DNA of 49,506 nt from contig NZ_JAIXST010000203.1 of the NCBI RefSeq assembly GCF_027484545.1, forward strand, positions 1-49,506. The letters run 5' to 3'. The stretch is from Runella sp. (lineage in GTDB: Bacteria > Bacteroidota > Bacteroidia > Cytophagales > Spirosomataceae). The notes beneath the pieces were generated by a model. That model was not told where the DNA came from. It saw nothing but the letters and a program-made list of their open reading frames with translations, and ran no database searches. Positions within the stretch are counted from its first letter, which is position 1. Each line of letters starts with the position of its first letter. Both the position numbers and the translations under genes were made by a program. Positions 112 to 38,452 of this stretch are shown here, piece after piece.

Positions 112-468
112 CTATAACTTCTTCAATTTTTCTACCGTTTTTGCCAAACGTTCTATTTCGATGGGTTTAAGCAGGTAGTCAATCGAATTCTCTTCAAATG
201 CTTTCATTGCATATTGGTCATAAGCCGTCGCAAAAATCACCATGGGCATATCAGTCAAATGAGCAAGCATTTCAAAACCGGTCATTAAAGGCATTTCGAT
301 GTCTAAAAAAATAACATCCGGCCGTAATTCCGTAATTAAAGTAAGCCCTTCGACACCATTACCGGCTTCCCCAATAATATCAAAAGTAGCTTCAAACTGA
401 TTAAGCAAGCGCCGCAAACGAGCGCGGGCCAAAGGTTCATCGTCAATTAGTAGCGTTTTTAATGGCAT
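112..468 (-). CDS. Response regulator receiver-domain protein (LytR/AlgR type, receiver only)
   Basis: The 118-residue product is a complete CheY-like receiver domain. The acidic pair is in LLIDDEP near residues 9-10, the phospho-acceptor Asp is in VIFLDIEMP near residue 56, the conserved Thr/Ala is in FATAYD and the Lys is in YLLKPIE near residue 102. The wording (DDEPLARARLRRLL, AFEENSIDYLLKP) is that of LytTR-family regulators, which normally continue with a linker and a DNA-binding LytTR domain to about 240 residues. Here a TAG stop follows VEKLKKL. The same frame stays open after the stop to the window edge. It may be a genuine single-domain regulator or a truncated or disrupted LytTR regulator. 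No histidine kinase lies next to it inside the window. Confidence 0.85.
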   Translation of the reverse strand: MPLKTLLIDDEPLARARLRRLLNQFEATFDIIGEAGNGVEGLTLITELRPDVIFLDIEMPLMTGFEMLAHLTDMPMVIFATAYDQYAMKAFEENSIDYLLKPIEIERLAKTVEKLKKL

Positions 469-31651: not shown

Positions 31652-31683
31652 TTTGTCTCCCTCCTCCCTTCTCACTACTTTTG
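31652..31683 (+). promoter_or_regulatory. Promoter of the cobalamin riboswitch transcript
   Basis: TTTG (31652-31655) is followed by exactly 20 nt and TACTTTTG (31676-31683). This places the transcription start near 31689, the first base pairs of the riboswitch. It is the cleanest Bacteroidota-type promoter in the window. Confidence 0.8.
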
Positions 31684-31687
31684 TAAC

Positions 31688-31955
31688 AGTTTTGGGTGCC
31701 TCACGCTTGTTTCATGACAAGCTTCGACGGCTTAATAGGGAATTCCGTTCAAAGCGGAAACTGTCCCCGCAACTGTAAGTTTCACCCAAAGTCGCTCTTA
31801 AACTGCAAAGACCACTGGCAAAATAATGAGTGAATGCGTGAATTAATGAATGAGTGATTTTAACTATTCACTAATTTACTCATTCACAATTCACTCATTA
31901 GAAAAAACTGGGAAGGTGCAAGGGCGATGAAACGAGTCAGGAGACCTACCCGAAG
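31688..31955 (+). promoter_or_regulatory. Cobalamin (adenosylcobalamin) riboswitch
   Basis: The conserved core is plain. TTTTGGGTG closes with CACCCAAA (31783-31790). The block AGGGAA...GCGGAAACTGTCCCCGCAACTGTAA has the family consensus. It is followed by CCACTGG (31812-31818), GGGAAGG (31910-31916) and the B12 box GTCAGGAGACCTACC (31936-31950). It binds adenosylcobalamin and shuts off the downstream gene, a BtuB-like receptor, whose ATG is at 32062. Between CCACTGG and GGGAAGG lies an unusually long AT-rich arm. The expression platform between 31956 and 32061 is unclear; hairpins TGAGC-GGTA-GCTCA (31994-32007) and GTCCC...GGGAC (32018-32043) lie in it, without a terminator U tract. Control of translation initiation is therefore more likely than termination. 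Confidence 0.93.
31824..31900 (+). repeat. Long AT-rich hairpin arm inside the riboswitch
   Basis: TAATGAGTGAAT at 31824 pairs perfectly with the end of the arm (ATTCACTCATTA, ending at 31900), and a further imperfect stem continues inwards for about 25 bp. Both halves are built of GTGAATTAATGAA / TTCACTAATTY units. The same units occur in the tolC upstream region at 28565-28597. Confidence 0.8.
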
Positions 31956-32061
31956 TCATTCTTAGTCGCTGCGTACGGAGGATGCGCCCCGATTGAGCGG
32001 TAGCTCATTTGTATCAAGTCCCAATTCAACTAAAAAAAGGGACACAACTCATTTCATTTCT

Positions 32062-34023
32062 ATGAACCGAATTTTTAAATCGGTCGGTTTCACCGCGCTT
32101 GGCTTCCTAGCGCACGCCTCGTTTGCTCAACAGGAAGTAACTTTAGAAGAAGTCACCATTACCGCCAACAAGTTTGCCCAAAAACAATCCCAAACGGGTA
32201 AGGTTGTTAGCATTTTATCGGATTCAATCCTGCAAAAGTATCAATCCCAAACCCTCGGCGAGTTGCTGACGCGCCAGGTCGGACTAATGATTGTGGGCGC
32301 CCAAGGCCCCAACGGGACGAATCAGGACCTGTATTTACGTGGATCAAGCACAGGAAACACGCTCATTCTCATCGACGGAATGCCCGTTTATGACCCCTCG
32401 TTCATCAGTCCCACTTTCGACCTCAACATGATAACTGTCGGCGAATGTGAACGCATTGAAATCTTAAAAGGAGCGCAATCCACGCTCTACGGCTCCGACG
32501 CGGTGGCAGGTGTTATCAATATCTTTACAAAAAAAGGAAAATCAGCAAAATCGGTGGCGGGAATGGTTGCGGTAAACGGAGGTTCTTACGGCACATTTCG
32601 GGGTTCGGCAGGTATTAACGGTTCTTTTTCAAAAGGGTATTACAACGTTCAATACACCCGTTTGACTTCCCAAGGTTTTTCTTCGGCTTATGATAAAGAA
32701 AACAGAGGCTTTGATACTGATGGCATTAGCCAAAACAATTTACTGGCCAACGTGGGACTTAATCTTTCTGAAAACTTAACGCTCAAACTACGAACGTTAC
32801 TCAACGGGTATCAATCCGATATTGACGCTGGCGCATTTGCCGACGAAAAAGACTTTACGATTGACCAAAAATTCAGGATGATTGCCACGGGTTTGGAGCA
32901 TCAGTATGAGAAAGGAAAGCTAACTTTTAACTACGGTTTCAGCCAAAGCAAACGCACGTATATAGATGACTCGACTTCGGTAGAGAAAGGTGCTTTTAAC
33001 AACTATGCAAAACAATACTACGGAGGCACCACTCAATTTGTTGAACTCTATAATTCACTTAAAATCAATGACCACCTTGAATTGATTACGGGAACGGATT
33101 TTCGTTTCAACAACACGGATCAAACCTACGAATCGTACAGCAGTTTTGGAAAATATACATCTCCGCCCTTGGGTGCTGACACTGCCAAAACCAATATTCT
33201 AAGCGTATATGCTTCGGGTTTTCTGAAAACCAAAGTCGGTTTCTTTTTAGAACTGGGCGGGCGTTATAATCATCATTCGTTGTATGGGAGCAATTTTACG
33301 TATTCGTTCAATCCTTCGTACCTGATTCACGATCAACTAAAAGTGTTCTTCAATCTTTCGTCGGGCTTCAAAGCTCCTTCTTTGTACCATTTGTATTCGC
33401 CTTACGGCAACAAAACGTTGAATCCTGAGAAATCGGTTTCAATGGAGTTTGGAGTTCAGATATTTTCTAAAAATAAAGTTTCCAACGTACGTTTACTGTA
33501 TTTTGACCGTCGCATCAAGGACGTCATTTTCTTTCAATCGCTTTCCCAAGCCCCTTACGGCCGCTACATTAATTTTGACAAACAGCACGATCACGGCTGG
33601 GAATTGGAAGGAAAATCACAAATTGACAAGCTGAGTATTTGGGGAAATATGACGCTCTTGGAAGGAGCTATTACGACCAAAGTTTCAGGAAAAGATACAA
33701 CTTACAATAACCTATACCGTCGCCCGAAGGGTTTGGCAAACGTAGGCGCAGGTTACCAAATTTCGCAGAAATTATTCGTAAGTGCTTCGCTGAGAAGTGT
33801 TGGAAAACGATTGGATTGTTTCTACAACAGCGCCACTTTTAACACTGAAACTATAACATTGAACCCCTATACGACGTTGGATGTATACGGCGAATATCAA
33901 TCTTCGAAATCCATCAAAGCCTACGTAGACTTAAAAAACCTAACAAATAAACAGTACTTTGATACGTATGGCTACAACACGCGCCGATTTAATTTTATGG
34001 CGGGTTTGCAGTTGAATTTTTAG
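32062..34023 (+). CDS. BtuB-like TonB-dependent receptor for cobalamin/corrinoids
   Basis: The start is the ATG at 32062 (MNRIFKSVGFTALGFLAHASFA, signal peptide). The longer frame from 31993 lies in the riboswitch platform. The 653 residues have a TonB-box region (QEVTLEEVTITANKFAQK), a plug domain (LGELLTRQVGLMIVGAQGPNGTNQDLYLRGSSTGNTLILIDGMPVYDP, then ERIEILKGAQSTLYGSDAVAGVINIFTKKGK) and a barrel ending in the aromatic strand NFMAGLQLNF. The size and lack of a carboxypeptidase-like N-domain fit BtuB rather than SusC. The B12 riboswitch and the transport-related genes behind it make corrinoid uptake very likely. Two other B12 transport parts (BtuF, BtuCD) are not in the window. Confidence 0.92.
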   Translation: MNRIFKSVGFTALGFLAHASFAQQEVTLEEVTITANKFAQKQSQTGKVVSILSDSILQKYQSQTLGELLTRQVGLMIVGAQGPNGTNQDLYLRGSSTGNTLILIDGMPVYDPSFISPTFDLNMITVGECERIEILKGAQSTLYGSDAVAGVINIFTKKGKSAKSVAGMVAVNGGSYGTFRGSAGINGSFSKGYYNVQYTRLTSQGFSSAYDKENRGFDTDGISQNNLLANVGLNLSENLTLKLRTLLNGYQSDIDAGAFADEKDFTIDQKFRMIATGLEHQYEKGKLTFNYGFSQSKRTYIDDSTSVEKGAFNNYAKQYYGGTTQFVELYNSLKINDHLELITGTDFRFNNTDQTYESYSSFGKYTSPPLGADTAKTNILSVYASGFLKTKVGFFLELGGRYNHHSLYGSNFTYSFNPSYLIHDQLKVFFNLSSGFKAPSLYHLYSPYGNKTLNPEKSVSMEFGVQIFSKNKVSNVRLLYFDRRIKDVIFFQSLSQAPYGRYINFDKQHDHGWELEGKSQIDKLSIWGNMTLLEGAITTKVSGKDTTYNNLYRRPKGLANVGAGYQISQKLFVSASLRSVGKRLDCFYNSATFNTETITLNPYTTLDVYGEYQSSKSIKAYVDLKNLTNKQYFDTYGYNTRRFNFMAGLQLNF

Positions 34024-36213: not shown

Positions 36214-36795
36214 ATGTATTTGAAAAGCAAACTACTATTTCTTCTGACGTTTATTTCCCTGAGTGCAACCGCCCAAACGGTGTATATGAAACCACATCTT
36301 GGACTGCGGGCAGGTTTGAACGTCGCTACCAGCACGTATTCTCCCAATTTTATCTATAATCTAAAGCGTCAGTCACACCCTAATTTGGGCGTTTTTTACC
36401 GCTTTCGTACCCAAAAATGGGCTTTCCAACCAGAAGTTCAACTTTCTGTACGCGGAGGCACGTTTAAAGGTGAATTAGAAGTAGTACGCAACAATTTTAA
36501 CTTCGCCAGTTTTGTACCAGTGGTGGGTTACATCATTACCGAAGGTCTTACTTTTGAAGTAGCTCCGGAGTTTAGCTATGCTCTGATTGCGCCCAAAAGC
36601 ATCGTGCCGCTTCGTCGCAACGAATTCAGCCTGGGTTCGGGATTTCGATTCGATTTTATGGACATGGCCGAAGACTTTAGCCTAAACATTAGATACGTAC
36701 ACGGTTTCACTAATTTGTCCACTTCAAAGACCGAGTCTCTGTATAATCGCACGTTACAGGTGTCTGTGATTTATAATCTTTACAAAAAGAAGTAA
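36214..36795 (+). CDS. PorT-like outer-membrane beta-barrel protein
   Basis: The 193-residue product has a signal peptide (ending SATAQ) and the small eight-strand barrel pattern of the outer-membrane beta-barrel (OMP_b-brl_2/PorT-like) group: HLGLRAGLNVATSTYS, LGVFYRFRTQKWAFQPEVQLSVRGGTFKG, ITEGLTFEVAPEFSYAL, FSLGSGFRFDFMDMAEDFSLNIRYVHGFTN, and a final LQVSVIYNLYKKK strand. Such proteins are abundant and their function is rarely known. It is followed by the promoter of the trp leader. Confidence 0.88.
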   Translation: MYLKSKLLFLLTFISLSATAQTVYMKPHLGLRAGLNVATSTYSPNFIYNLKRQSHPNLGVFYRFRTQKWAFQPEVQLSVRGGTFKGELEVVRNNFNFASFVPVVGYIITEGLTFEVAPEFSYALIAPKSIVPLRRNEFSLGSGFRFDFMDMAEDFSLNIRYVHGFTNLSTSKTESLYNRTLQVSVIYNLYKKK

Positions 36796-36812: not shown

Positions 36813-36843
36813 TTTGGTTTTTTCAATACTGATTGTACTTTTG
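36813..36843 (+). promoter_or_regulatory. Promoter of the trp leader transcript
   Basis: TTTG (36813-36816) is followed by 19 nt and TACTTTTG (36836-36843), the full Bacteroidota consensus. The transcript should start near 36848-36851, at or just before the leader peptide. Confidence 0.8.
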
Positions 36844-36847
36844 CAAC

Positions 36848-36913
36848 ATGATTTCTAACACAAAAAATATGAATTGGTGGTGGCGTTCTTCTTTTCAAGA
36901 GATGAACACGTAA
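36848..36913 (+). CDS. trpL: Trp leader peptide with three tandem Trp codons
   Basis: A short frame reads MISNTKNMNWWWRSSFQEMN then T and TAA. Codons 10-12 (36875-36883) are TGG TGG TGG; Trp is the rarest residue, and three in a row directly ahead of trpE is the classical sign of a ribosome-sensed attenuator. A second ATG at 36869 gives MNWWWRSSFQEMNT; as the predicted transcript start is near 36848-36851, this shorter version may be the real one. A segment including the last Trp codon (36881-36887) can pair with 36912-36918. Behind the stop lies a strong terminator. Confidence 0.85.
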   Translation: MISNTKNMNWWWRSSFQEMNT

Positions 36914-36934
36914 CGCTATGCTTATTTTTTAATC

Positions 36935-36971
36935 AAAAAAGCCCGCTGTTCATCCTACAGCGGGCTTTTTT
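36935..36971 (+). terminator. Attenuator terminator in the trpE leader
   Basis: AAAAAAGCCCGCTGT (36935-36949) and ACAGCGGGCTTTTTT (36957-36971) form a perfect 15-bp stem with a U tract, 36 nt before trpE. The loop and last stem bases TGTTCATC (36947-36954) can pair with GATGAACA (36901-36908) in the leader. A ribosome stalled at the Trp codons would leave that segment free; one that reaches the stop at 36911 would cover it. Confidence 0.9.
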
Positions 36972-37006
36972 ATTTTAATTCTTTCGACTGTTAAACCTAA
37001 AACAAT

Positions 37007-38452
37007 ATGACAACTACAGAAACGACTTTCAGAGTAACTACCCAAAGTCGTAAACTATTGGGCGACATGCTTACTCCCGTAGGTATTTACCTTAAACTCC
37101 GCGACAAGTTTCCATATACCGTTATGCTCGAAAGTGCCGAATATCACGGTATGGAGCACGGCTTTAGCGTCATTGCCTGCGACCCCGTCGCCTCTTTTAT
37201 TCTGGACGAAGAAGTAGTAACCCAAACTTTTCCCGACGGTTCCGAAGAGTCGTTTCGTTTACCGTATCGCAAGCACGCCATGCAAACGTTGCGGGATTTT
37301 ATTCAACGTTTCGATGCCCCCAAAAACGAACATCCTTTCATCAACGGAGGCTTATTTGGGCACATTACGTACGATTCCGTAGAATATTTTGAAGATATTG
37401 AGATTCAGGAAAAAACTCCTGACAACGCCATTCCTCAAATGGTGTATCGTGTGTATCGGTTTGTGATTGCTTTTAACCATTTCAAAGACGAAGTATACCT
37501 TTTTGAACACGATTATGGCGTGACCCGCGAAGATTCAAATCACAGCAAGTCAATGGGTATGGATTTGGATTCGTTGGAAATGATTGTAAAAGCGCCGAAA
37601 ATGGCCACGTTCCGTTTTAAAGCCAACGAAACAGAGCAAAGCAACGTTACCGATGACCAAATGGCTGAGACTATCCAAACCTGCATCAATCACTGCTTAC
37701 GCGGCGATGTTTTTCAGATTGTCCCTTCCCGTCGATTCAGCAAAAAATTTGAAGGCGATGAGTTTAATGTATATCGTACCCTTCGTTCGGTCAATCCTTC
37801 TCCATACTTGTTTTATTTTGATTTTGGCAGTTACAAAATTTTTGGTTCTTCTCCCGAAAAACAGATTTTCATCAAAGACGGACAGGCGGAGATACACCCA
37901 ATTGCGGGCACTTTCCGCCGAACTGGCGACGACCAAAAAGACGCTGAGCTGGCTCGTCAATTAGCGGCCGACCCTAAAGAAACCGCTGAGCACGTTATGT
38001 TGGTGGATTTAGCGCGTAATGACTTGAGTCGCAGTTGCGATGTAGTCAAAGTAGTCACGTACAAAGAAGCTCAGTTCTTTTCGCACGTCATTCACTTGGT
38101 TTCAAAAGTGACGGGTGAAATGAGCGCAGGCGTGAATCCCCTCCAGTTGGTAGCCGATACTTTTCCAGCAGGTACGCTTTCGGGTGCACCGAAGCACAAT
38201 GCGATGACCATCATCAATCGTCTTGAAACTACCAACCGAAGTATTTATGGCGGCGCCTTAGGCCACATTAGCTTCAATGGGGATTTTAACCATTGCATTA
38301 CGATTCGGACATTTTTGAGTAAAAATAACACGCTCTTTTATCAAGCCGGCATGGGTGTTGTGGCCAAATCAAACATTCATTCCGAAATGCAGGAAGTACA
38401 TAACAAATTGGCTGCCTTACGGAAAGCAATTGAACTAGCCAATGAATTGTAA
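37007..38452 (+). CDS. trpE: Anthranilate synthase component I
   Basis: TrpE turns chorismate into anthranilate using ammonia from TrpG, the first step of Trp synthesis. The 481 residues show the N-terminal Trp-binding motif VMLESAEYHG (the LLES allosteric site), and the chorismate-binding core with FQIVPSRRFSK, PSPYLFYFDFG, IHPIAGTFRRTG, ELARQLAADPKETAEHVMLVDLARNDL, FSHVIHLVSKVTGEM, DTFPAGTLSGAPKHNAM and GAMGVVAxS-type end (here GMGVVAKSNIHSEMQEVHNKL). The motif set separates it from PabB and isochorismate synthases. It has its own leader, attenuator and terminator, so it seems to be transcribed alone; trpG, trpD and the rest are not within the window. Confidence 0.96.
   Translation: MTTTETTFRVTTQSRKLLGDMLTPVGIYLKLRDKFPYTVMLESAEYHGMEHGFSVIACDPVASFILDEEVVTQTFPDGSEESFRLPYRKHAMQTLRDFIQRFDAPKNEHPFINGGLFGHITYDSVEYFEDIEIQEKTPDNAIPQMVYRVYRFVIAFNHFKDEVYLFEHDYGVTREDSNHSKSMGMDLDSLEMIVKAPKMATFRFKANETEQSNVTDDQMAETIQTCINHCLRGDVFQIVPSRRFSKKFEGDEFNVYRTLRSVNPSPYLFYFDFGSYKIFGSSPEKQIFIKDGQAEIHPIAGTFRRTGDDQKDAELARQLAADPKETAEHVMLVDLARNDLSRSCDVVKVVTYKEAQFFSHVIHLVSKVTGEMSAGVNPLQLVADTFPAGTLSGAPKHNAMTIINRLETTNRSIYGGALGHISFNGDFNHCITIRTFLSKNNTLFYQAGMGVVAKSNIHSEMQEVHNKLAALRKAIELANEL

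Follow-up and report, generated by a model that had tools for sequence, protein, structure and literature searches.

Does the short interval upstream of trpE in a Runella genome (Bacteroidota; Cytophagales; Spirosomataceae) encode a ribosome-mediated tryptophan attenuator, and is such a design new to the phylum? The locus lies in a 49,506-nt stretch of contig NZ_JAIXST010000203.1 (assembly GCF_027484545.1), hereafter the window, in which a sequence-only reading had proposed a promoter, a leader peptide with consecutive Trp codons, an antiterminator and a terminator. Our analysis assigns a probability of about 0.92 to the reading that a classical ribosome-mediated trp transcription attenuator, related to the Bacteroid-trp family of Rfam, controls trpE. 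The basis of this assignment is the conservation of the leader, its geometry, genus-specific complementarity and predicted changes of state, from which we infer the start site, ribosome stalling, termination and the response to tryptophan. The device very probably switches on trpE, the first gene of tryptophan synthesis, when tryptophan is short.

Architecture and conservation of the trpE leader

All the parts that had been claimed were located in the window, on the plus strand:

36813-36816, plus strand: -33 promoter element TTTG, from sequence, 19 nt upstream of the -7 box
36836-36843, plus strand: -7 promoter element TACTTTTG, 4 nt from the leader ATG
36848-36913, plus strand: leader peptide ORF trpL, MISNTKNMNWWWRSSFQEMNT, 21 codons, with TAA at 36911-36913; predicted leaderless
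36875-36883, plus strand: three Trp codons, the proposed sensor; WW/WWW run in 86 of 91 family regions
36901-36908, plus strand: antiterminator 5' strand GAUGAACA, from permutation, alignment and folding
36935-36949, plus strand: terminator 5' arm (computed coordinates), consensus terminator pairs with compensatory change
36947-36954, plus strand: antiterminator 3' strand UGUUCAUC, formed by the last 3 nt of the terminator arm and 5 nt of the loop
36950-36956, plus strand: terminator loop (computed coordinates)
36957-36971, plus strand: terminator 3' arm, ending in a U tract, from parsing, compensatory pairs and computed coordinates
37007-38452, plus strand: trpE, anthranilate synthase component I, 481 aa, best model NCBIfam TIGR00564

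The promoter consensus TTTG/TAnnTTTG is quoted in a passage of PMC7366714. The terminator, described beforehand as 15-bp and GC-rich, does comprise 15 bp, and since six of these pairs are A-U it is GC-rich just in its upper part; it stands with its U tract upstream of trpE, at a spacing to the ATG at 37007 of 35 nt instead of 36. Folding of the leader transcript is much more stable than that of its shuffled versions (z -4.57; 0/200 as good). Minor pairs flank the antiterminator at 36898-36899, and a GCU extension of the antiterminator (36915-36917 with 36940-36942) is tentatively possible. The best NCBIfam model for the trpE product, TIGR00564 trpE_most, scores 424 bits, below its cut-off of 517.7, and the gene is 90-94% identical to seven Runella records.

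We found trpE in 13/13 genomes of the genus and 119/120 of the family, and analyzed 91 upstream regions, from 90 of the 119 trpE-bearing family genomes plus G010 of the genus set; L016, a trpE fragment at a contig end, was left out before leaders were counted. A short ORF with a Trp run precedes trpE in 86 of the 91, bearing out the conservation on which the proposal depended. Of the five regions with no near leader, three, which are Emticicia, have a Trp-run leader 533-561 nt upstream of trpE; a scan that covered 39 of 80 loci located these distant leaders, and their coordinates correspond to L026, L027 and L031. Leader and terminator, the latter between leader and trp gene, were both parsed in 84 regions from 27 of the 30 genera with trpE in the family set. 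The seven regions dropped were L020 and L021, which have a leader and no terminator found by the T-run rule, and L026, L027, L029, L031 and L081, in which a Trp-run leader is absent within 500 nt.

In these three Emticicia genomes (loci L211, L213 and L215 of the scan) the 533-561 nt that separate attenuator from trpE leave space for a gene to have been inserted there.

The sequence-only reading had proposed aligning the region across relatives and looking for the Trp run and for covariation in three stems. The Trp run is conserved, the antiterminator covaries by some measures (see below), and in the terminator 8 of the 11 consensus pairs show compensatory change; the remaining stem, the 1:2 pairing (36881-36887 with 36912-36918), shows no covariation across relatives by column counts. 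Its 7 bp can form in the window sequence, as had been noted, and permutation and shuffling give it no gain over permuted partners (2396/10,000 as good). The default-termination arm of the switch therefore rests on folding energies. As judged from these comparisons, conservation of the leader, the antiterminator and the terminator across the family goes beyond chance.

The controlled unit had been taken to be trpE alone, and this seems to be so in the window genome. The gene after trpE encodes a protein with a T9SS sorting domain, and trpG/pabA-like, trpD, trpC, trpF and PALP (trpB-like) genes lie on another contig (L167), where three short WW ORFs occur and none could be placed as a leader. 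The 1500 nt downstream of trpE read in 11 relatives contain what we take, by eye and from familiar motifs, to be a trpG-like ORF in six, four of which (L019, L020, L022, L026) also have a trpD-like ORF, so that in those relatives the attenuator may govern an operon. In L073, a tRNA-Trp(CCA) gene (273-346, minus strand) lies between the attenuator terminator and trpE, co-oriented with trpE, and the attenuator may thus control tRNA-Trp there too. Upstream of the leader, the window carries a gene at 36214-36795 on the same strand and, further away, a cobalamin riboswitch (RF00174, 84.4 bits, 31677-31967) directly 5' of a large ORF at 31993-34023 whose product, on inspection by eye, resembles a TonB-dependent receptor.

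Antiterminator pairing and predicted switch states

The proposed 8-bp antiterminator (36901-36908 with 36947-36954) was assessed by pairing in silico the strand that follows the Trp run with the terminator arm and loop of its own leader and of leaders from other genera. Over 27 genus representatives, the summed duplex energy of own pairings was -427.1 kcal/mol, against a permuted mean of -367.1 (sd 13.7), and the contiguous helix score was 509.6 against 443.6 (sd 13.2); in both cases 0/10,000 cross-genus permutations were as good, and we regard the pairing as real. The signal is weaker at the level of single rows, where 12/84 leaders alone beat 95% of cross-genus pairings; in g12, g15, g20 and g27 the own-terminator pairing does not exceed the cross mean, and UGAACAG/CUGUUCA is common to many genera.

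An alignment of 50 of the 84 parsed leaders (A1) gives a concordant picture. For the antiterminator and its extension, 84.1% of cells hold standard pairs, compared with 80.5% after shuffling (0/500), and sliding the antiterminator out of register leaves 33-48% of cells paired. One antiterminator column pair swaps between AU (19 sequences) and UA (14 sequences); 21 cells are changed on both sides, against 10.1 in shuffles and above all 500 of them, and the covariation score likewise exceeds all 500. The count of pairs with changes on both sides, 5, does not exceed that in shuffles (87/500 reach it), and a version slid by -3 has 34 cells changed on both sides versus 21 in register. Cells of the three-pair extension toward the base of the terminator arm are paired in 72.7% of cases, and the contiguous antiterminator, 8 bp here, spans 5-12 bp in relatives. 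Taken on these sequence comparisons, the antiterminator pairing is genus-specific.

The position of this strand relative to the ribosome was computed on the assumption that the ribosome extends 13 nt downstream (3') and 14 nt upstream (5') from the first base of the A-site codon. The strand starts 16-36 nt, usually 18-21 nt, past the last Trp codon in 84/84 leaders, and would be free when a ribosome stalls on Trp, given the 13-nt reach. A ribosome at the stop codon, which had been suggested to sit over the antiterminator strand, indeed covers at least half of it in 74/84 leaders and all of it in 73/84. Free at the Trp stall and masked at the stop, the strand behaves as a mutually exclusive antiterminator, with 10/84 leaders (in g4, g11, g12, g15, g19, g23 and g27) deviating at the stop.

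Predicted states were obtained by folding only the RNA left exposed by the ribosome and reading the antiterminator probability. Its median is 0.99 when a ribosome occupies the last Trp codon (at least 0.5 in 83/84), 0.00 when one occupies the stop codon (at least 0.5 in 4/84), and without a ribosome 0.04 (at least 0.5 in 16/84, below 0.5 in 68/84). Once the full terminator has been made, the median with a stalled ribosome falls to 0.00 and the antiterminator is favoured in 5/84, so the decision must be kinetic. The antiterminator had been called short enough either to work kinetically or to have been missed in part: the kinetic alternative stands.

Under the resulting model, transcription would start at the leader AUG or beside it, and a ribosome would begin on a leaderless or nearly leaderless end. 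At low charged tRNA-Trp it would stall on the UGG run with its footprint ending before 36901, leaving 36901-36908 free to pair with 36947-36954, which would keep the terminator hairpin open and allow read-through into trpE. With enough tryptophan the ribosome would reach the stop codon at 36911-36913 and mask 36901-36908, and the terminator would close before trpE. If the leader were not translated, its self-folding would mostly hide the antiterminator strand, making termination the probable default.

Two readings dispense with the leader peptide as a sensor. The terminator could simply be an intrinsic terminator of the upstream gene, which is co-oriented and ends before the hairpin that precedes trpE, with a Trp-rich ORF arising by chance and no regulation; this is hardly credible, for leader peptide, antiterminator complementarity and spacing are kept across 27 genera, in some of which the upstream genes differ widely (rRNA, tRNA), and the permutation test contradicts it. 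Another tryptophan sensor, such as a T-box, a TRAP-like protein or a riboswitch, could instead act on the same terminator and leave the leader ORF secondary. We consider this very improbable: the whole window yields, at Rfam gathering scores, the cobalamin riboswitch alone, far upstream of the leader; a T-box is matched neither in the window at gathering score nor among the 57 leader matches at E up to 10; and the Trp-codon run is near-universal among the family regions. A ribosome that senses Trp codons during leader translation thus remains the preferred reading.

Transcript start and stable-RNA-linked relatives

Where the leader transcript begins bears on how it is translated. In 26/84 leaders (7/27 genera) the start codon follows an exact TAnnTTTG box at a gap of 4 nt, or in 29/84 (8/27 genera) if TAnnTTTG-N4-ATG is allowed one mismatch, and the gap between -7 box and ATG is 4 in 12/12 same-genus leaders parsed. 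Exact boxes are absent at gaps 0-3 and 5-16 among the 84, the rest lying at 17 or more. In 39 further loci (30 RF01692 loci, from the Bacteroid-trp family discussed below, and nine from the order), an exact box stands at gap 5 in five, from four genera (L104, L106, L107, L119, L124), and at gap 14-30 in 29, measured from the nearest in-frame ATG, which for some loci may not be the start used; five have none. Since the box is centred on -7, transcription would start about 4-5 nt past its G and these leaders would begin at their AUG. The fixed TAnnTTTG-N4-ATG spacing accordingly predicts a leaderless leader mRNA, and the leader transcript in the window probably starts at 36848 or no more than one or two bases away.

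The spacing recurs elsewhere in the window genome. The pattern TTTG-N18-20-TAnnTTTG-N1-12-ATG has 60 matches versus 38 for a reversed control, and gap 4 accounts for 15 of the 60 (one sequence twice), with 2-8 at each other gap (binomial P 9e-5 for 15/60, or 2e-4 for 14/58). Of 30 loci drawn from the 60 matches, 24 could be read, and in these, ORFs of at least 92 aa are opened by 4/7 at gap 4 (L174, L179, L189, L197) and by 3/17 at other gaps. This excess points to other leaderless genes. Mapped leaderless mRNAs are scarce in the phylum: passages of published work put them at 5.5% in Flavobacterium psychrophilum (PMC9723704) and 5' UTRs shorter than 10 nt at about 3.7% in Bacteroides thetaiotaomicron (PMC7366714).

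The sequence-only reading had offered a leaderless start or use of the second ATG (36869), and the promoter spacing predicts the former. Attenuation would be the same if translation began at 36869 after a 21-nt 5' UTR, and this in-frame ATG follows an A-rich stretch and stands 6 nt 5' of the Trp codons, while in many genera the exact -7 box lies at least 17 nt from the start. We nevertheless think it unlikely: an ATG at this position occurs in the window only (1/12 same-genus leaders, the first ATG being kept in 12/12, window included), and 84/84 parsed leaders have an ATG (82) or GTG (2) 21-33 nt before the run. From these comparisons, translation most likely starts at the first ATG, and the unusual feature of the window attenuator is probably its leaderless start.

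Some relatives have a different upstream context. In 9/60 fetched regions (L082, L083, L086-L091 and L093) trpL-trpE closely follows a tRNA-Pro(CGG) gene, with 13-59 nt between that gene and the start of the leader. A 5S rRNA gene, whole or cut at a contig end, precedes the trp attenuator in 14/60 (L052, L056, L061, L062, L064, L065, L068, L070, L071, L082, L084, L089, L091 and L093); L070 is a Dyadobacter, a genus whose trpE contigs often end there. Longer flanks of 10 relatives revealed 23S and 5S rRNA upstream in four (L159, L160, L162, L163), 5S only in L161 and no rRNA in five, with no 16S seen in the portions read. In several relatives a TAnnTTTG box lies between 5S and leader, which leaves read-through from the rRNA genes uncertain; trpE attenuation in the tRNA/rRNA-linked relatives may be fed by a stable-RNA promoter.

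These contexts allow a joint reading, to which we give slightly less than even odds, in which Bacteroidota trp attenuators do without an ordinary 5' UTR by two routes, one promoter-locked and one tRNA-linked. If so, in the group of the window a promoter 4-5 nt before the leader AUG would yield a leaderless leader peptide, onto which the first ribosome could load once the RNA appears. Several other genera of the family have trpL behind tRNA-Pro, some also behind 23S and 5S rRNA; in these the 5' end of the leader would come from tRNA processing, and a stable-RNA promoter would feed trpE while the attenuator gates the operon. It is these two features, the leaderless spacing and the linkage to tRNA/rRNA genes in relatives, that deserve follow-up.

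Relation to known attenuators

The leader has no Rfam match at gathering score. Against RF01692 (Bacteroid-trp) the window scores 37.0 bits in a full-length, collinear match; the cut-off being 49, it is not a member by Rfam's rule. Sub-threshold matches to Thr_leader, STnc180 and L20_leader were judged by position to stem mainly from the GC terminator. RF01692 matches 45 of 392 phylum genomes; under stricter filters it detected 0/4 genomes of the Spirosomataceae in the phylum sample, and a covariance model of the family (R1) was therefore built. At E 0.5, RF01692 gives two sub-threshold matches (L036, L080) over 16 family loci. Conversely R1, built from the family alone, finds 30/30 RF01692 loci at full length with E 7.4e-7 or better; a trpE-like gene accompanies all 30, directly behind in 27 and about 1.2 kb on in three. 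R1 contains the terminator helix only (11 pairs), and its detection of RF01692 comes largely from sequence and that hairpin. In the order, R1 has matches at E 0.01 or better in 133/192 genomes sampled, a list in which weaker matches were not vetted singly and which includes antisense and partial hairpin matches.

On this sequence evidence, we regard the window family and RF01692 as one family, homologous over the full element. RF01692 is listed for Bacteroidetes in a motif table of Weinberg et al. 2010 (PMC2864571). The attenuator design, whose precedent in the phylum had been left as a question, is hence not new to it, already being in Rfam as Bacteroid-trp; the window attenuator is a new branch of a known family, and its novelty is modest. 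It suggests that the true extent of Bacteroid-trp exceeds what the Rfam cut-off captures, adds an antiterminator with comparative support, and offers a clean system in which leaderless initiation and the coupling of transcription to translation could be tested, in a phylum that a passage of PMC9723704 describes as being without Shine-Dalgarno sequences.

Like RF01692, the window element has a Trp-run leader peptide, a collinear register and a trpE-like gene downstream, in the same phylum; unlike it, in that the Rfam pairs enclose the Trp codons and include neither the antiterminator nor the whole terminator. The enterobacterial leader (E. coli trpL) combines Trp codons, an antiterminator and a terminator. 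The window shares these three parts and matches the Trp operon leader model RF00513 below threshold (35.9 vs 41 bits), partly through its GC terminator; it differs in its leader peptide, in its Bacteroidota promoter, in an antiterminator 3' strand lying mainly in the terminator loop and in a 1:2 stem that is unproven. Within the phylum, the consulted part of PMC9723704 describes leader-peptide attenuation predicted before amino-acid biosynthesis operons of F. psychrophilum, with trp not named there. A precedent for the predicted start comes from Sinorhizobium meliloti, an Alphaproteobacterium and thus unlike the window in lineage, whose trpE attenuator has a leader RNA beginning at the trpL ATG according to a passage of PMC7298713: both leader peptides would be leaderless, the 5' end being reported there and predicted here.
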